Positions 6,317-25,629 of a stretch of DNA of 26,382 nucleotides are shown here, piece after piece. Origin of the DNA: a virus; IMG/VR virus record IMGVR_UViG_3300034167_000694, positions 1-26,382 of that record; one strand, given 5' to 3'. A program made the position numbers and the translations under genes. The notes under the pieces were generated by a model, which was given only the letters and a program-made list of their open reading frames with translations, was not told the origin of the DNA and ran no database searches. The first letter of the stretch is position 1. Each line of letters begins with the position of its first letter.

Positions 6317-7144
6317 TTATTTTACTTCTTTTTTGATTCCTCCAGCTGTTGAATAAGTCTTTACTAGTTCTGGTTTATCTTTAAAAGCTTTCTTCATTAC
6401 TTCTATATTCTTTAAATCGTCATCTGAAAAGCCAATTGTAGGTACTGCTGGAATAAACTTATTTACAATATCCATTTTAAGAAAACTTCTTTTATTTAGT
6501 AAAGCAGCCATCCCTTTTATATAGTCTACAAATTCTTGCATCGCAATTACCTTTCCGTGTTCGGGGTTTGTGGCACCTATATCATCACCAAAAGAAACGG
6601 GGTGGTACTTATTTAACTCCAAATATGTTTTTATAAGTTCTTCATCAGTCATATCCTGTTCTCCTGCGAAGGTTCTATATTTTTTTAAGTTTTTAATTAC
6701 TTGGTTTTTGTCTATTCCTTTGAAATCGGAAACTATATAATTGTAAACTGCTTGTTTAAGAGTTCTCGGGTTGTGTCCTCGAGCAGTTATTATCGCAAAA
6801 ATCGAACCATTGTTTACCGCTTCTACAAAATCCTTCCATGCTGGACCAGGTTTAGCTTTCATAGCATCAATCAAAAATTGTTTGTCACCATCCACTCTAA
6901 AATCCTTGAAGGCGTTTGGAGCAAAATCAACGATTGTACTCCCTTTGTATTTTAAAGGTCCTTTACCTATTTTACTTCTATATTCAGCAAAATCTTCAGT
7001 ACTCATTCCAACCTCATTACCATCATCATCTAACAAATAGATTTCTGTTGGCATATGGACAATGTTGTCATCCCAATCGAATGCGTAATACTTTAAATCT
7101 GGTGTCCCCTCGGGTTTTATTCCCTCTCGTAATATTTTTTTCAT
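6317..7144 (-). CDS. HAD-superfamily phosphatase-like protein
   Basis: 275 aa. Motif I is YAFDWDDNIVHMPTEI at residues 20-35, with the nucleophile and acid/base pair D23 and D25. Motif II is AIITARG (T120), and the acidic motif IV is FGDDIGATNPEHGK around residues 185-198. Together these indicate a HAD-fold hydrolase with all main catalytic positions present; the substrate cannot be told. Such DWDDN-type proteins occur in several large T4-like phages without assigned function. It is wedged between sheath and tube genes, an unusual place for an enzyme, and its ATG follows the U-tract of a hairpin by seven bases, so expression depends on read-through. The N-terminus MKKILREGI contains an LxE-G sequence like a T4 prohead protease site. 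The C-terminal 70 residues are Lys-rich and unassigned. Confidence 0.75.
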   Translation of the reverse strand: MKKILREGIKPEGTPDLKYYAFDWDDNIVHMPTEIYLLDDDGNEVGMSTEDFAEYRSKIGKGPLKYKGSTIVDFAPNAFKDFRVDGDKQFLIDAMKAKPGPAWKDFVEAVNNGSIFAIITARGHNPRTLKQAVYNYIVSDFKGIDKNQVIKNLKKYRTFAGEQDMTDEELIKTYLELNKYHPVSFGDDIGATNPEHGKVIAMQEFVDYIKGMAALLNKRSFLKMDIVNKFIPAVPTIGFSDDDLKNIEVMKKAFKDKPELVKTYSTAGGIKKEVK

Positions 7145-11703: not shown

Positions 11704-12114
11704 TTACTGAGTTATGTAAATTTTATTTTTCATATTCACCATTTCAACTTCTTCTGCAAAATAAACTGGCTTGTCTGTACCTTTGAGTACGAATGTATCA
11801 TTCACATATGGATTATAGGTCACAATCAAATCACTATAAGGTTCCTCAATTCTATCACAAGGAAATTCACAAAAATCCAAAAGTGTACCTATGACAAAAG
11901 CATGTACATTTTTTCTTTTCTCATCTCTAACTCTTTCTTTTCCACCTGGTCTAACTCTGAACTCAACGTCTTTCAATCTAACGTAGTCAGCATGCATTAT
12001 AACCTTTCCCAAATATGAAATTGAAAATGTCTCCCTGTTCAAGTTATAGTAGACCATAACTCTTTGTCCCATAAATAATGAGTCAAATTGTGACTCTGTA
12101 ATTATCAATTTCAT
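11704..12114 (-). CDS. Conserved phage protein of unknown function in the neck operon
   Basis: 136 aa. The core is VYYNLNRETFSISYLGKVI, then HADYVRLKDVEFRVRPGG, then a basic stretch KERVRDEKRKNVHAFVIG. I recall this 'YNL-FSI--GKV--HAD-V-L-DV-F-V---G--RV--EKRKNVHAFV' arrangement from hypothetical proteins of T4-like phages, but know no function. A mostly beta fold with a conserved basic patch suggests nucleic acid or protein binding. The start MKLIITESQF carries an IxE-S sequence like a T4 prohead protease site. It shares one base with the gene before (TAATG overlap) and is one base from the gene after, so it is translated with the neck and completion proteins. Confidence 0.7.
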   Translation of the reverse strand: MKLIITESQFDSLFMGQRVMVYYNLNRETFSISYLGKVIMHADYVRLKDVEFRVRPGGKERVRDEKRKNVHAFVIGTLLDFCEFPCDRIEEPYSDLIVTYNPYVNDTFVLKGTDKPVYFAEEVEMVNMKNKIYITQ

Positions 12115-13059: not shown

Positions 13060-14808
13060 TTGTCGAATACTTTAGAATCAAAAGCAATTTCATTATTAGA
13101 AACCTATAGCGGGGCTAATAACTACATCTTGGAACTTAAAAGAAAATCCGAGGTGAATAAAAAGTTTTACCCAACAAGAAGTCAGGCTGAATATATAATA
13201 AACAATTTTGATAAACAACCCAAAGTCGCAAAAAAATGGGTTGTACTCGATGCTTACTTTGCTCAAAAATTTGCAGACGATAAATTACTACACCAAATTC
13301 CCGAAAAAATTTGGGTAGAAAAACTATTAGCTGAAAAGGAAAAGGCATATCACATTTGGGGTAGGTTTTTTGAAACAGACCAACTCAACGAGTTTTGGAT
13401 TCCAAAAGCGGCTATGATTAAAGACAACACAGTGAAAGACGTTGTTTTAGATTTTGATAAGTATTCTAATCGACCACCACTATCTCACCAAAGAGAAGCA
13501 ATTCAAAAATTAGTAGAAAATAAGAAATACATTCTAGCGGATGATATGGGGTTAGGAAAGACCACCTCAACTATAATAGCGGCTTTGGAATGTGGGGCTA
13601 AAAAGGTTTTGATAATTTGTCCCGCAACCTTGAAGATAAACTGGAAGCGTGAAATCGAAAATTATTCAGATAAATCTATCTATATAGCTGAAGGTAAAAA
13701 CTTTGACCCTAATAACGATTTTGTAATAATAAACTACGATATAATAAAGAACTTCCATGACACTAAAAGAAAAGATGAATCGCAAATTATTAGCGCCAAT
13801 TTTGATTTGGTTATTGTTGATGAGGCACACTATATCAAGAATGCTCAAGCACAAAGAACAAAGCTTATAAATGATATAGTAAAAAAGGTAGATAGGATTT
13901 GGTTATTGACAGGTACCCCCATGACATCAAGACCAATTGATTATTATAATCTATTGAGTTTGGTTGACTCACCCGTTGCCAAAAATTGGATGGCTTACGT
14001 TATAAGATATTGTAGTGGATATCAATTTAGGGTTGGACCACGGAAAGTATGGAATGTTATGGGAGCCTCAAACTTAGAAGAACTGAGAGATAGAACTTCG
14101 AACCTTACACTTAGAAGATTAAAAGAAGACGTACTTGATTTACCTGATAAAATTATCACACCAATTTATTTAAGACTGAAGTCAAAAGAATATGAAGAGG
14201 TGATGGGTGAATACTATAATTGGTATGAGAAAAATCCTGAAGAGTCTAAATCTTTGACCGTTCAATTTACAAAACTCACTAAGGTAAGACAAATTATTGC
14301 AGATGAAAAAATAACCCAAACAATAGAACTTGCAGAAAATATAATCGAACAAGATAAGAAAGTTATAATTTTCTGTAATTTTACAAATTCCCTAAACAAA
14401 ATTTTGGAACATTTCGGGAAGACGGCGGTCAAACTAGATGGTTCCATGTCCAAAGCGGAAAGACAATTTTCAGTAGACCAATTCCAAGAAAATGATAAGA
14501 TAAAAGTTTTTGTCGGTAACATAAAAGCAGCCGGCGTTGGTATTACTTTGACTGCCGCTGAAGCTGTAATTATGAACGATTTATCCTTTTTACCCTCAGA
14601 CCACTCACAAGCAGAAGACAGAGCTTACAGATACGGACAAAAAAGTAATGTACTAGTTTATTACCCAATATTTGAAAATACTATTGAGGGAATCATATAC
14701 GACATATTAAATAAGAAAAAACACGTCATCGCCACAGTGATGGGTGACAACAACAATTCCGCAGACTACGTGGAAGAAATTCTCCAAAGAATCAACGAAA
14801 TGAGATAA
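13060..14808 (+). CDS. SNF2-type DNA helicase / translocase
   Basis: 582 aa. Motifs in order: LSHQREAIQ (141-149), Walker A DDMGLGKTTS (161-170), motif Ia ICPATLKINWKREI, DEAH in VIVDEAHYIKN (252-261), TGTPMTSRP (284-292), then in the second lobe IIFCNFTNSL, LDGSMSKAER, GVGITLTAAEAVIMND and motif VI QAEDRAYRYGQ. The order and the DEAH plus RAYRYGQ boxes place it in the SNF2 family, near SMARCAL1-like fork-remodelling enzymes. The first 130 residues precede the helicase core and are unassigned. No ATG is available; TTG at 13060 fits the spacing after the SET stop, with an in-frame TGA at 13021. Possible roles are replication fork restart, taking the place of T4 UvsW, or removal of proteins from DNA. 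I cannot tell which. Confidence 0.88.
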   Translation: MSNTLESKAISLLETYSGANNYILELKRKSEVNKKFYPTRSQAEYIINNFDKQPKVAKKWVVLDAYFAQKFADDKLLHQIPEKIWVEKLLAEKEKAYHIWGRFFETDQLNEFWIPKAAMIKDNTVKDVVLDFDKYSNRPPLSHQREAIQKLVENKKYILADDMGLGKTTSTIIAALECGAKKVLIICPATLKINWKREIENYSDKSIYIAEGKNFDPNNDFVIINYDIIKNFHDTKRKDESQIISANFDLVIVDEAHYIKNAQAQRTKLINDIVKKVDRIWLLTGTPMTSRPIDYYNLLSLVDSPVAKNWMAYVIRYCSGYQFRVGPRKVWNVMGASNLEELRDRTSNLTLRRLKEDVLDLPDKIITPIYLRLKSKEYEEVMGEYYNWYEKNPEESKSLTVQFTKLTKVRQIIADEKITQTIELAENIIEQDKKVIIFCNFTNSLNKILEHFGKTAVKLDGSMSKAERQFSVDQFQENDKIKVFVGNIKAAGVGITLTAAEAVIMNDLSFLPSDHSQAEDRAYRYGQKSNVLVYYPIFENTIEGIIYDILNKKKHVIATVMGDNNNSADYVEEILQRINEMR

Positions 14809-14814: not shown

Positions 14815-14822
14815 TATTTATA
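14815..14822 (+). promoter_or_regulatory. TATTTATA element before the SOD fusion gene
   Basis: TATTTATA is followed by GAAAAAACTTG and ATG, 11 bases on. The same TATTTATA...AAAACTTG layout recurs before the gp13-like gene (16328-16347). The shared spacing and tail make these two the best examples of the proposed element. Confidence 0.42.
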
Positions 14823-14833
14823 GAAAAAACTTG

Positions 14834-16327
14834 ATGAACACAGAAAACAAAAACAACTCCGAATCACAAAGACAAATATTGATTGAGGAAATGAAAAAAA
14901 TCGGAATTGAAAAATTACCATACTCCTACTCAGCACTGAAACCCTTTATTGATGCCGAAACTATGGATTTTCATTATAATAAACATTATAAGGGATACGT
15001 AGACAAACTAAATCAGGCACTCTCGAAAAAGAAAATGGGTGATTGGGATTTAGAAAAAATTATAAAAAACATAAGTAGATACGACAAAACAATAAGAAAC
15101 AACGCAGGTGGAGCATTCAACCACGCATTATTTTGGAATATGCTCACCCCGACCCCAGTCAGACTCAAAGGAGAATTACAAAAGAAAATTTTTTCTGAGT
15201 TCAAAACATTTTCCAACTTCAAGAAGAAGTTTGAACAAACCGCTAAAGAAAGATTTGGTTCAGGTTGGGTTTGGTTGGTTTTAACAAAAAACAACAAACT
15301 CAAAATAATGTCAACTCCAAATCAAGACAATCCACTAATGAATGTTATAGAGGGTGGGGGATTTCCTTTGTTGGGTCTTGACCTATGGGAACATGCTTAC
15401 TATCTGAAATATAAGAACAAAAGAGATGAATATATTTCAAATTTTTGGAAAGTCGTAAATTGGGATTTTGTTAGTAAATTGTTCGAACTGAAGACTCAAA
15501 CAAAACTTTTAGAAAATAAAATTTCCAAACAAATAATGACTGAAGGTAAATCTTATATTGTGGATTGTACAACCGAAGATGAGAAATTTTTTCAGAACCT
15601 AATGAAAGACAACGAAATAAGTAAGTTGTATGGTATGGGAATTTATGCCGCGTTGAAACAAGTGGACTGGTTAGAATTCAAACCCAAAGACCCTGAAAAC
15701 AATATAATGCAAGGATTTTATAAAAATGGAGAAAGACACAATATTAGTTTTTTGGCTGGTAACTACAGAGCTTTTTGTTTAATCACCAAAAGTGTAAACA
15801 GATTGTTAAAAGATAATAATCATGAAATAATTCATTTTCAGAATAGAACTCCCAAAGAACAGGTCATGGCGGTGAAAAAACTGACCTCTATTTTGAAAAA
15901 ATATTCAAACAAAATTTTTGTTGAAGACTCCCCCTTTTTTCAGAAAATTATGTCCAATTTAGGTAATAGTAAAACCAAAGGGGACAAGGTAGAAAATCAA
16001 ACAAAAACAAGATTAGAAAAAGAATTCGGAAAAGAAAACGTTGATATCAAAAGTGGGTTTGGCGCTGAAAGTGACAACCAAGGATTAGATGGTCAAATTA
16101 TAAAAAATGAAAAAATAAACACTTTCCAAATTAAACCTCTTACAAGTTACAAAATAGAAGATGATTTAGTTTACGTAGAAACAACTGGTAAAATTTTACC
16201 ATACGAACAAGATTGGATGATTTTCACAAATAAGTTTGAAACCGTAATTTTAGAAAATAATGCCACAACCTTTGGCAGTAACGTTTACATATTCCCCGTG
16301 AGTAGTTTGATTTATACCTTAGTATGA
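14834..16327 (+). CDS. Mn-type superoxide dismutase fused to a long C-terminal region with a PD-(D/E)XK-like motif pattern
   Basis: 497 aa from ATG 14834 (a TTG lies directly before). Residues 22-216 are a complete Fe/Mn superoxide dismutase: metal ligands H47, H97, D183 and H187, with RNNAGGAFNHALFW, FGSGWVWLVL, STPNQDNPLMN and LDLWEHAYYLKY. Gly at 93 and Gln at 164 follow the E. coli MnSOD pattern rather than FeSOD. It should convert superoxide to peroxide and oxygen. The remaining 280 residues are foreign to the family (normal length about 200). Residues 381-435 show TKGDKVENQT, GLDGQII and FQIKP, with E387, D419 and Q432-x-K434 spaced as in PD-(D/E)XK nuclease folds. The middle part, 230-375, is unassigned. 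It follows the SNF2 gene and precedes a neck gene. SOD is certain; the nuclease assignment is a motif-level inference. Confidence 0.85.
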   Translation: MNTENKNNSESQRQILIEEMKKIGIEKLPYSYSALKPFIDAETMDFHYNKHYKGYVDKLNQALSKKKMGDWDLEKIIKNISRYDKTIRNNAGGAFNHALFWNMLTPTPVRLKGELQKKIFSEFKTFSNFKKKFEQTAKERFGSGWVWLVLTKNNKLKIMSTPNQDNPLMNVIEGGGFPLLGLDLWEHAYYLKYKNKRDEYISNFWKVVNWDFVSKLFELKTQTKLLENKISKQIMTEGKSYIVDCTTEDEKFFQNLMKDNEISKLYGMGIYAALKQVDWLEFKPKDPENNIMQGFYKNGERHNISFLAGNYRAFCLITKSVNRLLKDNNHEIIHFQNRTPKEQVMAVKKLTSILKKYSNKIFVEDSPFFQKIMSNLGNSKTKGDKVENQTKTRLEKEFGKENVDIKSGFGAESDNQGLDGQIIKNEKINTFQIKPLTSYKIEDDLVYVETTGKILPYEQDWMIFTNKFETVILENNATTFGSNVYIFPVSSLIYTLV

Positions 16328-16335
16328 TATTTATA
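16328..16335 (+). promoter_or_regulatory. TATTTATA element before the gp13-like gene
   Basis: TATTTATA begins right after the stop of the SOD fusion gene and is followed by TAATAAAACTTGTCT and the ATG at 16351. It shares the AAAACTTG tail with the element at 14815. Promoter role is inferred. Confidence 0.42.
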
Positions 16336-16350
16336 TAATAAAACTTGTCT

Positions 16351-17478
16351 ATGTCAGTAATTCCTGAACCAGAAAGAAGTAGAATATATACAAGAATCAA
16401 ACATCAATTAGGGGCACCTTTAAGAAGTGTTGAATTGACGGATGAAATGTTAGATTCTTTAATGGAATTATCTATTGGAGATTATGAAGAGTATGTTCTT
16501 CAATGGTTGATTGATAGTCAATGGGTAAACCTTGTAAATCTGAACATGAATGAGAAATCAGTGGCAAGGGCTTTGGTGACAAGAACGATGGATTTTGAAC
16601 AACAATTCGCATATTCATACTCAAAGATAGTTGGTCTACAAACTATGGGACCTTGGGTCCTGAAGAAAGATTATTTTGTTTTAGAGAGAAACAAACAAAA
16701 CTATGAAATCCCTGCCGGTAGAGAAGTGAATGAACTTTTATGGTTTTCCAATCAACCGTGGACAGCATTCGGATTAGGTGGTATAGGTGGATTTGGTTTC
16801 GGTGGAATTGGTTTGGGCGCAAATGAAGCAGGATACGCACAGATGGGATATCAAGGTTCTTACTTTATGATGAGTGGGTTTGATTATCTCATTAGAATGC
16901 AAGAAGCCAACATCCTGAATAGAATTTTGGGAGGTTCCCTAACATACAGAATCACAGGTTTACCTGATGGAAAGAAAAATATATTCCTTTATAATACCCC
17001 TGGAGGTCGTTTTAATTGGAATAACTACAGCTTGTATGAAGGTAAAGCCGTATGGTATTGGTATTATGACGTTGGTCCTGATGACAGAGCTAATTGTTTG
17101 AAAGCTAATCCCGATATTATAAAATTACCAACAGATGTTCCTATTTCTGAATTGAGTTGGGAAGAACTGAATGTACCTGGCCAACAATGGGTTAGAAGAT
17201 GGTTTACAGCATATGCAAAAGAAACTTTATCGAGAGTTAGAGGTAAGTATAGCGGAAACCTGAAAACTCCTGATTCAGAATTGACGATGGACTATCAAAT
17301 ACTTCAAACAGAAGCTAAAGATGAGAAAACAAAGCTATTAGAAGAATTGATTGGTGCAGAGGGATGGCTTACGAGATTGAGACCCGAAAAGGTAATGGAA
17401 AGGGAAGCTCAAATTGCTGAAAATTTAAATAAACAAATGAAATTCAGAGCAATGCCTCGTCAAATATACGTAATCTAA
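16351..17478 (+). CDS. Neck protein (T4 gp13-like)
   Basis: 375 aa from ATG 16351; an in-frame TTG two codons earlier is less likely. The N-terminus, PEPERSRIYTRIKHQLGAP with VELTDEMLDSLMELSIGDYE, and the C-terminal YAKETLSRVRGKYSG... followed by LTMDYQILQTEAKDEKTKLLEEL, match the plan of gp13-type neck proteins (T4 gp13, 309 aa), where the last part reads LIWGRNLSKFTG and NGEQIYNEA. gp13 connects the filled head to the tail. Residues 141-156 form a striking Gly-rich loop, GLGGIGGFGFGGIGLG, absent from T4. It is on the plus strand, opposite in direction to the gp14/gp15-like genes and 3.7 kb away, so the neck genes have been split by the accessory block. It overlaps the next gene at TAATG. 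Confidence 0.62.
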   Translation: MSVIPEPERSRIYTRIKHQLGAPLRSVELTDEMLDSLMELSIGDYEEYVLQWLIDSQWVNLVNLNMNEKSVARALVTRTMDFEQQFAYSYSKIVGLQTMGPWVLKKDYFVLERNKQNYEIPAGREVNELLWFSNQPWTAFGLGGIGGFGFGGIGLGANEAGYAQMGYQGSYFMMSGFDYLIRMQEANILNRILGGSLTYRITGLPDGKKNIFLYNTPGGRFNWNNYSLYEGKAVWYWYYDVGPDDRANCLKANPDIIKLPTDVPISELSWEELNVPGQQWVRRWFTAYAKETLSRVRGKYSGNLKTPDSELTMDYQILQTEAKDEKTKLLEELIGAEGWLTRLRPEKVMEREAQIAENLNKQMKFRAMPRQIYVI

Positions 17479-17813
17479 TGGCAATAGTTAAAAATATACC
17501 ATCAAAAAGAATAATAAATGGGTTTGCAATAGAGACCTCAGACAGCGCTGTCGTTACTGAAAAAGACTACAAAGTAAACGGAGAAGCGGTGATTGTTGTG
17601 AGAGGTGTACCAAACGCAACTTTGACTTTGGACTCTATGACCTCAGACCACGTTGTTGTTAAATCGATGACAAATCTCAAAGTGAAACCTGATATCAATA
17701 GGATTGATGAAGAATACGATGAGGTTGATTTAGATAAGTTCGCCTGTGTTGAATTTAAATTTATAAGAGATACTTGGTATATTCTTTCATCAGACGGACT
17801 CAAGAACTCCTAA
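17478..17813 (+). CDS. Small unknown protein, probably virion-associated
   Basis: 111 aa. The ATG shares one base with the stop of the gp13-like gene (TAATG), so the two are translationally coupled. I do not recognise a family. Beta strands appear to dominate (KVNGEAVIVVRGVPNATLTL, HVVVKSMTNLKV), followed by an acidic loop IDEEYDEVDLDKF and a final strand FKFIRDTWYILSSDGLKNS. The ending 'WYILSSDGLK' recalls small beta-rich phage structural proteins. Its 3' end overlaps the 3' end of the DNA polymerase gene by 24 bases, and I see no terminator hairpin there. A head or neck accessory role is a guess from the neighbour. Confidence 0.65.
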   Translation: MAIVKNIPSKRIINGFAIETSDSAVVTEKDYKVNGEAVIVVRGVPNATLTLDSMTSDHVVVKSMTNLKVKPDINRIDEEYDEVDLDKFACVEFKFIRDTWYILSSDGLKNS

Positions 17814-20618
17814 TTTAATTTTCCAATCTTCTTCCGCTAATTCGTAAATATATTCTGAACTAAGACCTCTTCTACCCCAATAGTTTAATTCCTGTTCAGT
17901 AATATCCAAAACATCCTCTTTAAGTTTGTCTTGGTCGCCCTCTTCAAATGGCATCCCGTTTATCAATTCACATTGAGCGGTTGTAAATATACCTCTTTGT
18001 TCAGGGTCGGTCACTAACAAATTGTCACGAACCTCTTGTTGGAATACCACTAACAAAGGTTCAATTCTTTTATTGAAAGTAACGATTGCCCTCGGAACAT
18101 TATACTCACCTGTCAGATTGGGGTTGTTTTCCAAAATATCTGCCTTCAACATATAACAATTCACAATTACTCCATCTTGTACTGGTTTCGAATTTGGGTT
18201 TTGGACTTTGTTATATTCATTTAAATCTTTGATTTGTTTAGCGGTCATTTTTTGTACGTCACCTTGAGACGCCTTTTTACCGTTATTGACATACATTATA
18301 ACATCACCAAGGTTTACATTCAAACCCTCCTGTATTGCCAATTCCATGTGTGCCATACGAGACATACTATTACCGGCCTTGGTTTTTTGTGTCAACCTTT
18401 TTTTATACTCGTCCAAGGTCAATTTTACTTTGGCTCTCTGAGCAATTTGGGATAAAGGAATTTTTTGGTCAAAAATTATTTTTAGATACTCATAGTAGTA
18501 CTCGATAAAATCTTTACCTCTACCTTCTAATAGGAGTTTAATTCCTTTGTCCAAAAAGGTTTCGATATACAAGGGAAGTTTTTTTGACTTGATTGAATTA
18601 CCTGTCAATTTGATTTTACCTCTTGCATCCATAACTGCGTAGTTTTTTCTTGCCAAATTGATACACGAAGGCCAAACTCCGTCAGTATCCAAAGCCATTT
18701 CACCCCTCATGAAAATATCGTTATATTCAGCAACATCCGCATCAGGTCCTGTATATTCTTTACCAACTTTGACCTTCCAATTTAAACCACGACCAATATA
18801 TTTGTGTTTGTCGACATCATCAGGACTTGAGAAGTTTACACCGTCAGTATCCATAACCAAGGGAGTATAACCTCGAGACATAAAGAATTTAATCATCTGT
18901 CTCAGATACTGACGACCCGTACAAGTAATCTGTTCACCCATGTACATATCACCCCAAGCAAAAACCTGAGGGGCGGACAAAGCACCGAACATTGAGTTGA
19001 TGAAGATTTTGATGGGTAATTGTTTGTTAGAATAAGATGCTGATTTTTGAGGGTCAGTTTTCTCAAACTCTTCGGCAAGTTGTTTGTAACGGATACGAGT
19101 ATCACGAAAATACTTTAACATTCCTTTCATCGCACCTGTAACATCACAGTCGGGGAAAACATCGTGTACGAGCTGAATAGAGGGGTATAGAGAGGAGAAG
19201 TCTAGCTTTAGGACATTCTTACTGTACCCGACTTTTAATAGTCGAGAAAGACCTCCTACGAAGTCTGTCTTTGATTGTTTCTCAGGGATTGCCAAACCGT
19301 GTTTATAAGACCACGCAAGCATTAGCATTTTCCAAAGGGTTGCCGTTCCCATAGTAGAAACCCTCTCATATGTGGTGGGAATCATTGAAGCTAGTAAGAA
19401 TGAGGCTTGATTGAACTCTTGGTCTACGGCTAAGGTTTCTTCCAAGTCATCATCCAAATATCTCTCAACCAAATTATCTCCTGTTGTTACAATATACACA
19501 TCAGGTCTTTTTTTACAAGCCGTATCGATTTTCTCATCCAATCCGACCTTTTTGTAATTTCCATTCTGAATGTTCAACCAATACTCTTCTTTGGCCGCAT
19601 ACATTTTACCAATATCAGTGTGTTCAATATAGACACGGTCAGTTGCTTCTTTACCGATAAACTTGGTAATATATTTCAAACCAGCAGCTTTAATGTTCGA
19701 GTTGATTGCTTGTGCTCTACGCACCGCATGAATGATATCAATGACATTATAACCCCAAATTGAAGTTTGTAGATAATCTTCTACCTCGTTTGCTAACTTT
19801 AGGATAGATTCCTTTCTTGTATAAGAATGTTGGGGATGTAAGGATTTGATAGACTTTCTTAAATCTATTCCTAGTTTTTGACTTCTTTCAAATATCCAGT
19901 GCCAATCGAAGTTCGCCGAATTATAACCACCGATAATACTTGGTTTAATTTCATCAATTACTTTGAAGAATTCTAAGATTGCATCTTTCTCATCCTTTTC
20001 ATCAAGACATTCAATTACCCTGTGGTAACCCTTATTTGTTTTGATTCCAATCATGAATATACGACCGTCTTTTGGGTCCAAAGCGTTTGTCTCCAAGTCA
20101 AATACAAGTCGCGTCACTTGATTATAATCATCAAAACCTTTGAACAATCTTTTTTCTTTGGATATCAGATATTGTTCAACAGGAGGTAAAACCATAATTT
20201 TGTCCTTGGTTTTTTCACCCCACGGGTCACAACCACCGTCACGGAAGAACTGAATTAGTTCACGATAACCTTTAAGGGACTTGACCATGAAAGTCAAACC
20301 ATTCTCAAGACGTTCATTATCTTTCGTTTCTAATTTTTGAATTACAATCCCATATTTTGACATCGCTTCTTTCTGAGCAATTTTGGAATTGTTATAGAAA
20401 TTTATACCACGGAGGTCTCCAACCCAAGCGAATGGTATAAATGTATCCTTACGAATCTCTTTACCCTTATTGGGTATTTCTTTGATTTTGAAAATGGAGT
20501 TTGAAACATAATCAAACTCAATAGCTACAATAAATTCTTCGGGGTCGTTACCATGTAAGAACGACTCAATTTCTTGAGGGTCAATCATATATTTTTCGAG
20601 TGGTTTATTGGCTTTCAC
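17790..20618 (-). CDS. Family B DNA polymerase with 3'-5' exonuclease (phage replicative polymerase)
   Basis: 942 aa (T4 gp43 is 898). Exonuclease motifs: Exo I VFDLETNA (D174, E176), Exo II YNSANFDWHWIFERSQ (D238), Exo III RYLDDDLEET (around D389-391). Polymerase motifs: region II KLDFSSLYPSIQ (D473), region III KIFINSMFGALSAP (537-550) and region I VMDTDGVNFSSPDD (D590, D592). The usual YGDTDS is here MDTDGV, with both catalytic Asp kept. All catalytic residues for synthesis and proofreading are present. The start is GTG 20618, inside an inverted repeat; ATG 20588 is the alternative and would remove ten residues. It stands alone on the minus strand between the plus-strand neck block and the glycosyltransferase cassette. 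Confidence 0.95.
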   Translation of the reverse strand: MKANKPLEKYMIDPQEIESFLHGNDPEEFIVAIEFDYVSNSIFKIKEIPNKGKEIRKDTFIPFAWVGDLRGINFYNNSKIAQKEAMSKYGIVIQKLETKDNERLENGLTFMVKSLKGYRELIQFFRDGGCDPWGEKTKDKIMVLPPVEQYLISKEKRLFKGFDDYNQVTRLVFDLETNALDPKDGRIFMIGIKTNKGYHRVIECLDEKDEKDAILEFFKVIDEIKPSIIGGYNSANFDWHWIFERSQKLGIDLRKSIKSLHPQHSYTRKESILKLANEVEDYLQTSIWGYNVIDIIHAVRRAQAINSNIKAAGLKYITKFIGKEATDRVYIEHTDIGKMYAAKEEYWLNIQNGNYKKVGLDEKIDTACKKRPDVYIVTTGDNLVERYLDDDLEETLAVDQEFNQASFLLASMIPTTYERVSTMGTATLWKMLMLAWSYKHGLAIPEKQSKTDFVGGLSRLLKVGYSKNVLKLDFSSLYPSIQLVHDVFPDCDVTGAMKGMLKYFRDTRIRYKQLAEEFEKTDPQKSASYSNKQLPIKIFINSMFGALSAPQVFAWGDMYMGEQITCTGRQYLRQMIKFFMSRGYTPLVMDTDGVNFSSPDDVDKHKYIGRGLNWKVKVGKEYTGPDADVAEYNDIFMRGEMALDTDGVWPSCINLARKNYAVMDARGKIKLTGNSIKSKKLPLYIETFLDKGIKLLLEGRGKDFIEYYYEYLKIIFDQKIPLSQIAQRAKVKLTLDEYKKRLTQKTKAGNSMSRMAHMELAIQEGLNVNLGDVIMYVNNGKKASQGDVQKMTAKQIKDLNEYNKVQNPNSKPVQDGVIVNCYMLKADILENNPNLTGEYNVPRAIVTFNKRIEPLLVVFQQEVRDNLLVTDPEQRGIFTTAQCELINGMPFEEGDQDKLKEDVLDITEQELNYWGRRGLSSEYIYELAEEDWKIKLGVLESV

Positions 20619-21077: not shown

Positions 21078-22751
21078 TTATGACTCTTTACGTAACTTCC
21101 TATCGTAATGGTCGAACCTATTATGTTCGGTTGGTGTCATAAGAAGTAACCCTGGTTTGAGTTTGCCCGCAACAGTCTGCTGATACATATGACTCATCCA
21201 CGTTTGTTCAAATGGGTGAGCCCAAGTTGTTTCTAAAAACATCTTTTTATTACCGGGCCTTGAGACTATTTGTGGCCAATTACAATAGTATATTTCACCT
21301 GTTGCATATGGTATACCTTTGTGGGAATCTATTTTGGTGAATTTTGTTTTTGGGGCATTTGGGTCTAATCCCATGTTTGGGAGTCGGGGTTTTTCAGGCC
21401 AAAACTTTAATCTTACATCTTGAGGGACATTATACCAAGACCATTGAGTACTATTATCACCAAAAAACTCTGAAAAATTTAATTTTAAAAAATCAAAATT
21501 TTCTTTTTTAACAATTTCTAAAGATTTTGAATAAAGATTATCTGTGAATCTGTTGAAACCATTTTTACAAACCTCTTGATTCGGATAGAAGAACATATCG
21601 TCCTCAAAGAAAAGGTAATAATCTAAATCCGTTTCTGTGTCAAAATGTTCTGCAATCCACTGTCTTCCACCGCAGATACCTAAATTATCCTTTTTTATTT
21701 CTTCGAAACCATAATCATCACATAATTGACTATAAGTTAAATCTGTTGTCCTGTCTGTAGAATTATTTAAAAGAAATTTTTTAGTTTTTAATAAAAAATC
21801 TTTATCATAAGAATTCATCGATTGTATCAGAGTTTCAAATTGTTCTGGACTGTTAAATGTTATAACATATAAACCAACTTTATTTGTATCTAACATTTCC
21901 TGTGAGACAAATCCGCTCTCAGATTTTACTTCTAAATTGTTATTTTTCAAACCCTCAAAAAATTTACCTATGAGACCGTTACCTTCTATCTCAAAATAAT
22001 TTATTAAATCTGAGTGTTTATAACACATTATACTAAAAATAGATTCTTCGGTACCCATCAACCCTTGGTCTAATGTAGATTTCAATAAACCATAATAAAT
22101 TGAATTTATTTCTGGTATAGTATACTTTGGTCCACCAAAGAATCCTCCTCTTGCAACTTTGTCTACTTTAGCACCGGCAATCTCATTTAATCTTGAATAC
22201 TCAAATCCATGAATTTCATTATTTGCCTCATATGGAAAACAAATAAAAGAAAACTTTGAGATGTATTTAGGAAGATTATTTAAAACCTTGTCGTGTGTGA
22301 AATATCCGGAGTGCACGGTGTTTGTAATACCTCCGTCAATCCAAAACATATATTCCGAATTAAATTGGTCCATAATCTTGGCATCATGAAGTAGAAAAAC
22401 TTTGGACATGACTAAAGGATTATAGTTTTCTAATTTCGATTGAGTTGAGTCTCTAAGCCACCCCGCAAGATTTTTCCAATCTTCATTGTTTCTTATCAGT
22501 TGTATTTTTTCAAAAAACTCATTTTCTCTGAACCAAGATATTGGTCTTCTAATAAATTGAGTATTCTCCTTATTCCTTTTTCTAAAAACAAATTCTTCTA
22601 AAGACTCATCCCCGAAAATAATCATATTTTCAGACGCATCCAAAAGAGAATCAAATTTTTCCAAATAATGTTCATAGGGTCGTTTCCAACCCTCATTTAA
22701 TTCAGACCTCCCGATGTCCCAAATACCCGTTACTAAAGTAATGTTATTCAT
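21078..22751 (-). CDS. Two-domain glycosyltransferase: HtrL/YibB-like plus GT2-like domain
   Basis: 557 aa. The first 275 residues fit the HtrL/YibB family: ITLVTGIWDIGRSELNEGW, YLEKFDSLL, then the sugar-nucleotide-site-like YMFWIDGGITNTVHSGYF (134-151), ICFPYEANNEIHGFEY and GGFFGGPKY. Residues 290-557 begin again with a GT-A start, VGLYVITFNSPEQFETLIQS, and hold a D-D motif YYLFFEDDMFFYP (378-390), as in GT2-type enzymes, with a Trp- and His-rich end (ETTWAHPFEQTWMSHMY). The two halves look like two complete catalytic units fused in one chain, so it may add two sugars in turn. Its start overlaps the end of the previous gene by eight bases. The acceptor and donor are unknown. DNA here is visibly more AT-rich than in the GT60-like gene of the same cassette. 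Confidence 0.72.
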   Translation of the reverse strand: MNNITLVTGIWDIGRSELNEGWKRPYEHYLEKFDSLLDASENMIIFGDESLEEFVFRKRNKENTQFIRRPISWFRENEFFEKIQLIRNNEDWKNLAGWLRDSTQSKLENYNPLVMSKVFLLHDAKIMDQFNSEYMFWIDGGITNTVHSGYFTHDKVLNNLPKYISKFSFICFPYEANNEIHGFEYSRLNEIAGAKVDKVARGGFFGGPKYTIPEINSIYYGLLKSTLDQGLMGTEESIFSIMCYKHSDLINYFEIEGNGLIGKFFEGLKNNNLEVKSESGFVSQEMLDTNKVGLYVITFNSPEQFETLIQSMNSYDKDFLLKTKKFLLNNSTDRTTDLTYSQLCDDYGFEEIKKDNLGICGGRQWIAEHFDTETDLDYYLFFEDDMFFYPNQEVCKNGFNRFTDNLYSKSLEIVKKENFDFLKLNFSEFFGDNSTQWSWYNVPQDVRLKFWPEKPRLPNMGLDPNAPKTKFTKIDSHKGIPYATGEIYYCNWPQIVSRPGNKKMFLETTWAHPFEQTWMSHMYQQTVAGKLKPGLLLMTPTEHNRFDHYDRKLRKES

Positions 22752-23631
22752 ATATTCTATTAAATTCCTCTAAGATTTTATAAAAACTTTTATTTTTCAG
22801 AAATAGTTCTTCACTAGTCCCTTGTGGTGCGTTATCCCTACACCACCAAATATCAAAATGTTTCCTAACAAACAAATCGTTGTGGTTATAAAACATTAAA
22901 GTCATTATTTGTTCTTCATGAGGTAAAAACTTACAAGAATCATCCGACAAGATTTTTACAACATAATCTTCGAATGTACTAACCATGTTATCCCATCTAT
23001 CTCTATGACCACCGAACAAACCACCAATAATATGAATTTGTCTTATATAGTTGGTATACCATTTTTGGTCCACGGTTCCAGACCAATAATTCCTTTCATT
23101 CTCTTTCCCTAATATTAAAAATTTATCACTTGTGTCGATTATTAAATTTTCTGAAAAAGAATTGTTAAACAACGTACTCTCATAAAATCTTCTCATACCA
23201 TGAGGAAAATTCAAATACTTCAATGGTATCAAACCACAATGTGATAATCCGGCGTCTATCCAATAATAATAATCGTATGATTTATCTTCGTTCCACCACC
23301 AAGAAAATTTAGAGTATTGAATTTCAATACATCTATCACCTCTCTTTATGTCCTCCACATTTTTTCTAAGATTTATTAAATCTTTGAATTTGGAATTAGT
23401 CAAATCAAATATTTCAAATTTTAATTTGTTTTCTGATATATTGTTTTCTTTATAAAAAAACTCTTTCAAAGATTCTATCTCTCTTTCAGAAGTATAACAC
23501 AGAAAATCTGCATTAGTCATTTTTAAAAGAGATAGAAGACTGAACCTATAGTGAGTACCTCTGGCAGGCCTACCCCCCAACTCTGTTCCATTCAAATCAC
23601 TATAAATTGCTGTTATAAATTTAATTCTCAT
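22744..23631 (-). CDS. HtrL/YibB-like glycosyltransferase
   Basis: 295 aa. It starts with a short GT-A type strand MRIKFITAIYSDLNG, continues with HYRFSLLSLLKMTNADFLCY, and carries the family-like centre YYYWIDAGLSHCGLIPLKYL (121-140), followed by IIGGLFGGHRD. The WIDAGLSH box, the GGLFGG box and the order of parts agree with HtrL/YibB proteins and parallel the first half of the neighbouring 557-aa protein (WIDGG, GGFFGG). The two are probably distant paralogues. Function in the family is poorly known, with sugar transfer in surface polysaccharide synthesis suspected. Overlaps at both ends (11 bases before, 8 after) show translational coupling within the cassette. Confidence 0.68.
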   Translation of the reverse strand: MRIKFITAIYSDLNGTELGGRPARGTHYRFSLLSLLKMTNADFLCYTSEREIESLKEFFYKENNISENKLKFEIFDLTNSKFKDLINLRKNVEDIKRGDRCIEIQYSKFSWWWNEDKSYDYYYWIDAGLSHCGLIPLKYLNFPHGMRRFYESTLFNNSFSENLIIDTSDKFLILGKENERNYWSGTVDQKWYTNYIRQIHIIGGLFGGHRDRWDNMVSTFEDYVVKILSDDSCKFLPHEEQIMTLMFYNHNDLFVRKHFDIWWCRDNAPQGTSEELFLKNKSFYKILEEFNRIYE

Positions 23632-24364
23632 TATAATGGAAGTGTTTTTTTTCTTCTTTGAATTTATTATTCGTATCTTGATTCAAAAATTTGTGATGTA
23701 TTTTTACTGGTGAGTATTGATTCCAATTATATGTTTGAGTATAAAAATTATTATACATCCCATGAGATACATCAGAATATGAATTTTTCTGTGGTGCTAT
23801 TGGTAAAATTGGAGTGTAAGATTGGAATTTAGGGTATACGTTTTTAACCAAATGTTCGTCTATTGGAAGAACATAATCACCGCTTTGAAATGCATAATCT
23901 TTTATTGTTCTGACAGCATCTAACACCTTTAAATCGTAAATCAAAATATTTGTTGCAAATATTTCTGTCAGTCTATCGTTTGGTTTAGGTGGAAGATTAG
24001 TTATATCCAACAATAAATCATATTTTGAACTTTTGTTTACTGGTCTATTCAATGTTGGTGCCAAATTCATTACACCGAACTCGATGTCCGATATTTGTGA
24101 TTCCAAGTCCTGAATTAAAGATTTACAATAAGGCATGAATTGACAATCATCTTCGATAATCATAACCCTTTGGTATCCTCTCTCTTCAGATATTCTCAGA
24201 ATTTCTAAATGAGAAAGAGTACATCCCATGTAACTATTTCTATTTATCGCGTTGAATAATTCAAAATCCCAACCAACATATTCTAATTCAAATTTTATGT
24301 CTTCTAACCTATCGGGACGAGATTCCAAATTTATTACAAACTTAGGTAATTCTTGGAATTTCAT
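23621..24364 (-). CDS. GT25-family glycosyltransferase
   Basis: 247 aa. The start KFVINLESRPDRLEDI (8-23), the FNAINRNSYMGCTLSHLEIL stretch (37-56) and VMIIEDDCQFMP (67-78, with the metal-binding E-D-D) are the three marks of GT25, the family of LPS galactosyltransferases and collagen-type galactosyltransferases. A typical GT25 domain is about 200-250 residues, so the enzyme is whole. The tail, after 215, is His-, Lys- and Asn-rich and varies in the family. It should transfer a hexose, often galactose, to a glycan or protein. The ATG at 24364 shares one base with the stop of the GT60-like gene. Its end overlaps the next gene by 11 bases. Confidence 0.8.
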   Translation of the reverse strand: MKFQELPKFVINLESRPDRLEDIKFELEYVGWDFELFNAINRNSYMGCTLSHLEILRISEERGYQRVMIIEDDCQFMPYCKSLIQDLESQISDIEFGVMNLAPTLNRPVNKSSKYDLLLDITNLPPKPNDRLTEIFATNILIYDLKVLDAVRTIKDYAFQSGDYVLPIDEHLVKNVYPKFQSYTPILPIAPQKNSYSDVSHGMYNNFYTQTYNWNQYSPVKIHHKFLNQDTNNKFKEEKKHFHYNEN

Positions 24365-25629
24365 TAGCTTACATGGTTATGAGATAATTGTCCCGTCAAT
24401 CTATCGCACCATCCCTTTGATTCTGAATGGGGCCATACAACCCAATACTTAGGTAATACATCAGTTTGAAACTCCCTCCAAATTTTACAATATTTGTCAG
24501 GGTCATTCATTAGTCTTGTAATCTCAGATTTATCTGCATCTTTTCTATACAGGGTTTCGTCATTAGGTCCATGGAATGCGACAACCCAAAAATCATAGTC
24601 TTTTTCAGGAACAGAGGAGTAACCAACATCAATACAGTGTTTATAAACAGTACAGAAAGACTTTTTCCAATCTTCTTCAGTTTCTATTGCAGGACTTGGC
24701 GGATAGTTTTTATCTAAACACCACTTATCTACAGCTCTTTTTTCGAATAAGAGACCCGAATACTTTTCATAGTCCCTTAGTGTTCTAACAGGTCCAAAAC
24801 CATAAAGTCCATCATGTCCCTCTTGGTTTTCACCATCCATACCAAACAGTTTTCTGTTTGTAAGATGTGAATGTTTATTTCTATCTCCCCAAGTTTTGTC
24901 ATCATCCCATTGTTTAGTTCTACCCTTGCGAGTATACTCGTGATAAATTACTGGAATATGTGGATGAAATAAATCATAACCCCAAGTATAAGCTCTTGCA
25001 GCAATAGAGATTTCTTCACCGTGAAAATAATATTCAGGATTGTGTTGAACCTCTTTTGCGAATGAACCTAAGGTAAAACAAAAATGTGCAGAATAAAATC
25101 TTGCTGGTACAGGTTTTGTCATTTCCCTCCAACCAGGAATTGTTTCAGGTAAAAAGAAAACTGCACCTTCAGGAATAAATCTATCAAACACCATTCTCCA
25201 AGCATCTTGTGCTCTTCCTGCAGGGTCGTTATCAGGGTCAAAGGAGGGTACATAACCCGTAAGTAGAGGTTTCTTATACCCATCCTTTTGAAGACCCTTT
25301 ATCATGTTGATTAGGATTTCATCCCAATCTTTGACAAATCTCATGTGTGAGTCTATCTGTAAAGTATATTTTTCACCAGAGTATAATTGTTGAACTAAAT
25401 TTCTTGCCCAACAAACCCCCTTAGCTTCTTGATAGGGAATGTCTAATATTCTAAAACGTTCATCATCTTTGTATTCGTCTAAATTGTCAAATTTATCTGA
25501 CTCAGAAAATTGTCTTGCAATACCAATAACCAAATTTTTTGGTTTTTTTGCATTTGCTAACATATCTTTTATGGTTAAAACTAATTGTGGGTCACGATAA
25601 CTAGCAATCTGAATAAAAATTTTGCTCAT
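24364..25629 (-). CDS. GT60-like polypeptide N-acetylglucosaminyltransferase
   Basis: 421 aa. Start IFIQIASYRDPQLVLTIKDM, then KNLVIGIARQ, GVCWARNLVQ (71-80), TLQIDSHMRFV with the D-S-H metal/donor motif (93-95), and RFYSAHFCFTLGSFAKEV, FHGEEISIAARAYTWGYDLF and HIPVIYHEY. This series marks the 'GlcNAc' (GT60) family, whose known members attach N-acetylglucosamine to Thr or hydroxyproline in proteins, as in Dictyostelium Skp1. The fit is clear and the length is normal. It is the first gene of the four-gene sugar cassette and lies directly after a Thr-Pro-rich protein gene, a likely acceptor type. Its ATG is 21 bases after the U-tract of a hairpin, so much of its message may depend on read-through. 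Confidence 0.82.
   Translation of the reverse strand: MSKIFIQIASYRDPQLVLTIKDMLANAKKPKNLVIGIARQFSESDKFDNLDEYKDDERFRILDIPYQEAKGVCWARNLVQQLYSGEKYTLQIDSHMRFVKDWDEILINMIKGLQKDGYKKPLLTGYVPSFDPDNDPAGRAQDAWRMVFDRFIPEGAVFFLPETIPGWREMTKPVPARFYSAHFCFTLGSFAKEVQHNPEYYFHGEEISIAARAYTWGYDLFHPHIPVIYHEYTRKGRTKQWDDDKTWGDRNKHSHLTNRKLFGMDGENQEGHDGLYGFGPVRTLRDYEKYSGLLFEKRAVDKWCLDKNYPPSPAIETEEDWKKSFCTVYKHCIDVGYSSVPEKDYDFWVVAFHGPNDETLYRKDADKSEITRLMNDPDKYCKIWREFQTDVLPKYWVVWPHSESKGWCDRLTGQLSHNHVS

Follow-up and report, generated by a model that had tools for sequence, protein, structure and literature searches.

The gene at positions 14,834 to 16,327 (plus strand) of the window, the whole 26,382-nucleotide stretch of viral DNA analysed here, encodes a single chain of 497 amino acids, in which the open reading frame (ORF), Pfam matches and an alignment of homologues delimit an N-terminal tail, an Mn-type superoxide dismutase (SOD), a linker, a helical domain and a PD-(D/E)XK nuclease-like domain. 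We consider it fairly probable, from comparison with related sequences, that the product is a head-cargo polyprotein, which would be packaged in the phage head and cut by the prohead protease, so that SOD and nuclease would enter the host as free enzymes together with the DNA; packaging, cleavage and enzymatic activities are all predicted. What sequence and computation show are the identities of the domains and their conservation, motifs of the cut-site type, a gene for the protease in relatives, a fixed genomic slot and the exchange of modules.

In the proposed course of events, a single chain, encoded in a slot among the virion genes, would be synthesized, probably at a late stage of infection, and its tail would direct it to the core of the prohead in the way that T4 internal proteins are directed by their capsid-targeting sequence. 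A T4-type S77 prohead protease would cleave after E19, E227 and E237, giving a SOD of normal size and, apart from it, a nuclease (about residues 20-227 and 238-497, respectively), and both would be ejected into the host along with the DNA. More speculatively, the nuclease might stay inactive as long as it is in the chain or in the head and, once released, cut host or rival DNA, and the SOD might remove superoxide during takeover or entry. Prohead targeting and cutting at the joints seem likely to us on the sequence comparisons below, and we would expect ejection into the host with somewhat less confidence.

Domain architecture of the protein

The ORF is intact, running without internal stops from an ATG at 14,834 to a stop codon that ends at 16,327; a TTG at 14,831 lies directly 5' of the ATG, and the choice of start is without consequence. 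We aligned 98 full-length members of the family, which reduce to 48 non-redundant representatives at 90% identity. The first 19 residues (14,834-14,890) form a variable tail in this alignment, the proposed capsid-targeting propeptide. Pfam recognizes Sod_Fe_N at residues 26-104 (E 2.4e-25, 89.2 bits for a cut-off of 27) and Sod_Fe_C at residues 112-215 (E 3.8e-40, 136.5 bits for a cut-off of 20.9), and by sequence the PDB entries matched best belong to Mn/Fe SODs (E 4e-60). The metal ligands H47, H97, D183 and H187 are kept in 48/48 representatives, and the protein has NQD at residues 163-165 and GG at 92-93, features of Mn-type enzymes. Together with the fold search, this makes residues 26-217 (14,909-15,484) by sequence a complete Mn-type SOD with its four ligands, as the earlier note had read it; dismutase activity is predicted only. 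Bacterial Fe/Mn SODs have the same fold and ligands, at 35-52% identity, but those found are stand-alone and lack the nuclease extension: when bacterial genomes were searched with the whole alignment, the matches were to the SOD only, and those checked were stand-alone proteins, some with signal-peptide-like N-termini, none of them a fusion.

The 280-residue C-terminal extension described in the earlier note is present, but it falls into two parts, a helical one (about residues 240-365) and a nuclease-like one (376-497). A model of the full-length chain was weak (pTM 0.40) and a fold search with it gave SODs only; the C-terminal part was thus modelled alone with AlphaFold, residues 228-497 being built from a 43-sequence alignment (pLDDT 87.8, pTM 0.70). 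In the fold search against the PDB, the region aligned was model residues 149-270, that is, protein residues 376-497 (15,959-16,324). The top match was the SPARDA effector (Z 7.7; 9qcc and 2ost are among the matched entries), followed by I-Ssp6803I and Hjc (7.5 each), NhoI (7.0), HhaI and DpnI (6.5) and RecU (about 5). Nearly all leading rows are known PD-(D/E)XK enzymes, at moderate Z (6.5-7.7), and Foldseek fills its top ten with I-Ssp6803I and Hjc-type resolvases, although their E values are 0.03-0.3.

The predicted catalytic motif spans 15,992-16,135, with E387 (15,992-15,994), D419 (16,088-16,090) and Q432-x-K434 (16,127-16,135); all four residues are invariant in 48/48 representatives, as are G383, Y457 and F464. 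They follow the order of the PD-(D/E)XK motif, in which an acidic residue in the first helix precedes D...(D/E/Q)xK on core strands, and Q at the third motif position is an accepted variant. Since the fold ranking agrees with the invariant motif, we regard the assignment as sound, the moderate Z scores notwithstanding: a PD-(D/E)XK fold is supported for residues 376-497 by model and motif, and nuclease activity is predicted. The suggestion of such a nuclease in the earlier note has therefore stood up, the fold being found in the model and E387, D419 and K434 being retained in homologues. I-Ssp6803I, archaeal Hjc, the SPARDA effector, NhoI, HhaI and DpnI have the predicted fold and the E...D...QxK motif in common with the phage protein, which differs from them by an extra helical domain in front. 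For the C-terminal half, none of the sequence matches in Pfam, PHROGs, PADLOC or the PDB passed the threshold; scattered single-sequence matches to DUF6602, MC4, LmuC and ShosA fell below threshold and were rejected as identities for it.

The helical domain itself (residues 240-365, 15,551-15,928), delimited by alignment and model, has invariant C245, R301, N310 and F314-C315 and matched no known fold in a search that is a very weak test of this domain. C245 (15,566-15,568) and C315 (15,776-15,778) are invariant in all 48 representatives and are retained in members that lack the SOD; the pair is possibly a metal site, a disulfide or a redox switch.

Candidate protease sites at the joints

The T4 prohead protease gp21 cleaves after the short motif L/I-X-E (PMC9026906). 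It removes the N-terminal targeting peptides of T4 internal proteins (PMC9958956) and cuts Alt at ITE-6 and LTE-619 (PMC5694885). Three sites of this kind are proposed in the window protein (arrows mark the putative cuts): E19 at the end of the tail (14,888-14,890; I-E-E↓M), E227 C-terminal of the SOD (15,512-15,514; L-L-E↓N, usually L/I-x-E↓S in the family) and E237, a second linker site (15,542-15,544; M-T-E↓G, L/I-x-E↓G in most members). Two of them have L or I at P3 in this protein (E19 and E227), and E237 has M. Though tail and linker are variable, these three positions are Glu in 98/98 aligned members and never Asp, and P3 is L, I, V or M in 98/98 (L, I or V at E19). Among the 40 columns with a Glu majority, only six are invariant in the 48 representatives: these three, two in the SOD (E42 and E186) and the catalytic E387. 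Because gp21 cuts after L/I-X-E, and because Asp in place of the site Glu blocks the processing of T4 IPIII (PMC9026906), both the P3 residues and the strict Glu support the head-cargo reading, and the position of invariant L/I-x-E sites at the joints suggests that the parts are separated by a head protease. The calculated products of such cutting are a 208-residue SOD, which is a normal size, and a 260-residue nuclease.

Could these glutamates have a more ordinary role? If the protein were an auxiliary enzyme made in the cell and not packaged, they would cap helices or contribute to the folding of a coiled-coil tail and linker. Plain stand-alone SODs are indeed found in phages, MIJ3 and Vibrio phage 2.275.O among them, and short motifs arise by chance in Glu-rich tails; at the N-terminal site, [LI]xE occurs in 47 of 50 proteins against 34 +/- 3, an enrichment that is modest taken alone, the motif being short and the tail Glu-rich. 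The site after the SOD is another matter. In a set of 50 representative SOD proteins of all architectures, 46 extend beyond the SOD, and 42 of these 46 have [LI]xE[GSA] after it, against 4.5 +/- 1.9 in shuffled sequences (0 of 500 shuffles). The motif shows no enrichment within the SOD, and the site is missing from the listed proteins whose chain stops at the SOD (L319, L337, L345). That just these three glutamates are invariant, with no Asp, also speaks against an unpackaged enzyme, as do the location of the gene among virion genes, described below, and the observations on modules, capsid protein and protease that follow; we judge this alternative unlikely.

The most telling comparison in support of head cargo is that of modules occurring both free and fused. 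One and the same module appears as ETINE↓SVDRREKSALKWLNKKF within a polyprotein and as MKIIITE↓SSRDRVVLKWLNKEF when it is a free gene, and a second module behaves alike. In two relatives, [LI]xE[GSA] lies within the first ten residues of 30 ORFs against 6.4 expected (p 1e-11) and of 23 against 5.3 (p 1e-8), in tails that include MKKIIRLTESDL and MKYLITES. Tails ending in L/I-x-E, of the types MKKIIRLTESDLxRIVKRxIxE, MKYLITESKL and MKKILREG, are seen on many genes of the relatives G010 (L267-L283) and G009 (L385-L399), and likewise in the window at 11,704-12,114 and 6,317-7,144. We regard short tails of this kind as candidate capsid-targeting tails.

A candidate protease for such sites is encoded by the relatives. 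A gene for an S77 protease (E 1e-23 to 1e-31) is found in G032, the nearest relative, whose fusion is 99.8% identical to that of the window, in the relatives of about 300 kb (G009, G010 and G011) and in most other long relatives; the window fragment is too short to include this gene, and its presence is read through them. Records with no S77 match are mostly shorter fragments, but also include one of 224 kb and one of 200 kb. Gp23-like capsid proteins of the relatives have a conserved LINE↓A at residue 60. T4 gp23 loses a 65-residue N-terminal part, and we read LINE↓A, by analogy, as the counterpart of this cut. The S77 protease of the relatives itself has ILIE near its N-terminus, to be compared with LIE-9 in T4 gp21 (PMC9026906). 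The site after the SOD, the S77 gene and the capsid-protein motif all support the head-cargo reading.

A slot of changing content among virion genes

The gene occupies a fixed place. In more than 30 loci the order is sheath, g10662, (11704-type gene) and g12114 on one strand, next SNF2, the SOD-nuclease gene, gp13 and g17478, and last the DNA polymerase gene PolB on the other strand. By annotation and locus comparison, the constant neighbours in the window are an SNF2-type helicase gene upstream (13,060-14,808, plus strand) and a neck gene downstream, encoding a gp13-like head-tail adaptor (16,345-17,478, plus strand). Identity between loci is mostly 55-92% for SNF2, gp13 and PolB, and the SOD-nuclease gene is the most variable. 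The earlier note had placed the gene in one accessory system with SET and SNF2; this does not hold, since SNF2 is constant, SET is found at some loci only and the next gene is a virion gene. Locus order and patchy SET place the gene in the virion (neck/tail) cluster and not in an accessory island.

An octamer, TATTTATA, lies 12 nt before the ATG (14,815-14,822, plus strand), and gp13 has its own copy at 16,328-16,335. In the relatives G010 and G009 it occurs about 8-45 nt before ORFs that include gp13, structural-type genes and the SOD-nuclease gene, with 33 copies before genes against 1.9 expected in the former and 18 against 1.0 in the latter. By its distribution in the sequences it is probably a late-type promoter of this phage group. 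Its association with tailed genes was inconsistent (Fisher p 0.53 and 0.045), and we use it solely as a feature that the gene has in common with structural genes. The family B DNA polymerase (17,790-20,618, minus strand) shares only about 25% identity with the cultured phages that it matches best, Salinibacter phages, so the phage group has no close cultured relative. By capsid protein, the cultured phages nearest to the group are Flavobacterium phage immuto and Microcystis phage Mel-JY01. Beside it, at 21,078-25,629 (minus strand), lies a run of four genes that we judge by eye to encode glycosyltransferase-like or related sugar-processing proteins.

A search with a phage protein consisting of the SOD only revealed other occupants of the slot: an HExxH domain with SOD (about 362 residues), the same with small modules (466-620 residues), HExxH and SOD with a second nuclease-like domain of E...D...SxK pattern (about 700 residues), the tail with SOD and two nuclease-like domains (878 residues), a chain of 958 residues, and the tail with the nuclease but without SOD (307 and 322 residues). 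HExxH and additional nuclease-like domains are assigned here by sequence motifs. The metallopeptidase-like N-terminal domain (HEWVH, about 130 residues) precedes the SOD in L310:4500-5585, L313:4500-6596 and L338:2308-5181 and has no Pfam match; a free ORF near 66,915 in G010 opens with a similar sequence. Further nuclease-like domains (TRGxDFE...SPYD...SxKI; GQDxxV...VQVKP) are joined to SOD in L359:4899-7532, L338:2308-5181 and L313:4500-6596. A small module, MKIIISESQYKLIKENVSLKEKLLGL..., has several free copies near the polyprotein in L324, L381, L316 and L320, as if these were a reservoir for module exchange.

On a tree of gp13, the slot architectures need 12 changes. Two clean losses of the SOD, with tail, site and nuclease kept, fall in different places of the tree, each beside SOD-bearing relatives. 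In L209/L382 and L340/L341 the SOD and the nuclease of the fusion lie in separate ORFs, owing to a frameshift, a sequencing error or possibly a natural split; L209 and L340/L341 look like split ORFs of the former two kinds and were left uncounted as losses. A SOD-only protein of 241 residues with the tail MNLKIVDILREG (L292, on the 222-kb phage contig G021) has neighbours different from those of the slot. The changing content of a fixed slot before gp13, with an octamer common to structural genes, supports the head-cargo reading. The balance tips slightly towards a broader view, in which this slot would be a cassette that swaps SOD, an HExxH domain, several PD-(D/E)XK-like nucleases and small modules, with a head-protease site at the border of each; a single tail could then load several injected enzymes at a fixed ratio, and the maturing head would free them.

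The same exchange bears on two further explanations. The SOD stays more constant than any other part of the slot, its partners being exchanged, and SODs form dimers or tetramers; its fold could then be chiefly a packing or oligomerisation carrier that loads nucleases into the prohead, dismutation being incidental. We find this rather improbable, since all four metal ligands are invariant, beyond a carrier's need, free modules have tails without SOD, and some members do without it. Still less probable is a stable bifunctional enzyme, in which the SOD would sense or remove superoxide and so gate the attached nuclease in the infected cell. The ORF is single and intact in most members, both active sites are invariant, and the two cysteines of the nuclease half could be redox-sensitive; however, this half persists with both cysteines in members that lost the SOD, the 318-kb relative G011 has no SOD anywhere, in the same slot the SOD is found lacking this nuclease or joined to different partners, and the linker sites resemble protease sites. 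These observations, with the invariant L/I-x-E at the joints, leave the redox-triggered two-in-one enzyme suggested in the earlier note without support.

Phages with a protein of this kind number in the hundreds; they are uncultured freshwater phages of T4 type and often giant. In a search of viral contigs, nearly all of the best 80 loci were full-length fusions (51-100% identity), on contigs from dozens of metagenomes, and iterated alignment searches reached members at 43-50% overall identity and about 27-30% in the C-terminal half. The window is itself a 26-kb metagenomic contig, but the intact ORF, the 98 full-length members from many metagenomes and the constant flanks in more than 30 loci make the single SOD-plus-extension ORF real, and the chance that it is an assembly chimera or a chance resemblance is negligible, the homologues having already refuted it.

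Related systems and significance

Protease-trimmed, injected head proteins are known from T4 and phiKZ-type giants, and multidomain injected proteins as polyvalent proteins (PMC5512222). T4 gpAlt and IPI-IPIII, which carry a capsid-targeting sequence, are processed by gp21 and are injected, have in common with our system the L/I-x-E sites and the S77 protease gene (PMC9958956, PMC9026906, PMC5694885); the sites of Alt, one N-terminal and one further down the chain, are arranged as in the phage fusion, and the L/I-x-E site near residue 60 of the gp23-like capsid protein is matched in the relatives. Unlike the T4 proteins, the phage chain combines at least two unrelated enzymes that are separated by sites, its processing is predicted, and neither SOD nor PD-(D/E)XK is among T4 head cargo. 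Several disparate enzymatic domains per chain, thought to be injected early, characterize the polyvalent proteins of phages and conjugative elements (Iyer et al. 2017, PMC5512222). The window protein resembles them in joining a SOD to a PD-(D/E)XK fold, as its relatives do with other combinations; in polyvalent proteins, however, some of which contain zincin-like metallopeptidases, release is ascribed to embedded peptidases and not to a separate head protease, and SOD is absent from the text of that paper (PMC5512222). Giant eukaryotic viruses have SOD in the virus particle, for example the Cu,Zn-SOD of Megavirus (cited in PMC9405923), as is proposed here for the phage protein; the Megavirus enzyme belongs to an unrelated SOD family and is not presented there as a fusion.

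Several features weigh against head cargo. The tails are longer than the T4 targeting peptide of about 10 residues and are coiled-coil-like; P1' at E19 is mostly Met, whereas E↓A/G/S is usual at T4 cleavage sites; P3 at E237 of the window's own protein is Met in place of L or I; and helix capping by L-T-E-S-type motifs could explain part of the conservation. A packaged nuclease would also have to be kept off the phage's own DNA. Head packaging of enzymes is nevertheless physically possible, since T4 heads have been artificially loaded with nucleases and other enzymes through a tail-and-cleavage route (PMC9026906). In the literature searched, which comprised sources other than subscription journals and preprints, we found no chain in which unrelated enzymes are joined through head-protease sites, no phage SOD as head cargo and, in agreement with the earlier note, no SOD-PD-(D/E)XK architecture.

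If the head-cargo reading is true, phages make injected enzymes by a polyprotein strategy like that of eukaryotic RNA viruses, and the capsid protease does the processing. Superoxide would be suggested as a challenge that these phages meet at entry. The L/I-x-E tails would let sequence alone predict the first-entering proteins of abundant uncultured freshwater giant phages, making head cargo predictable genome-wide, and the slot would be a source of natural cassettes of tail and cleavage site with which enzymes could be loaded into phage heads, something already achieved artificially with T4.
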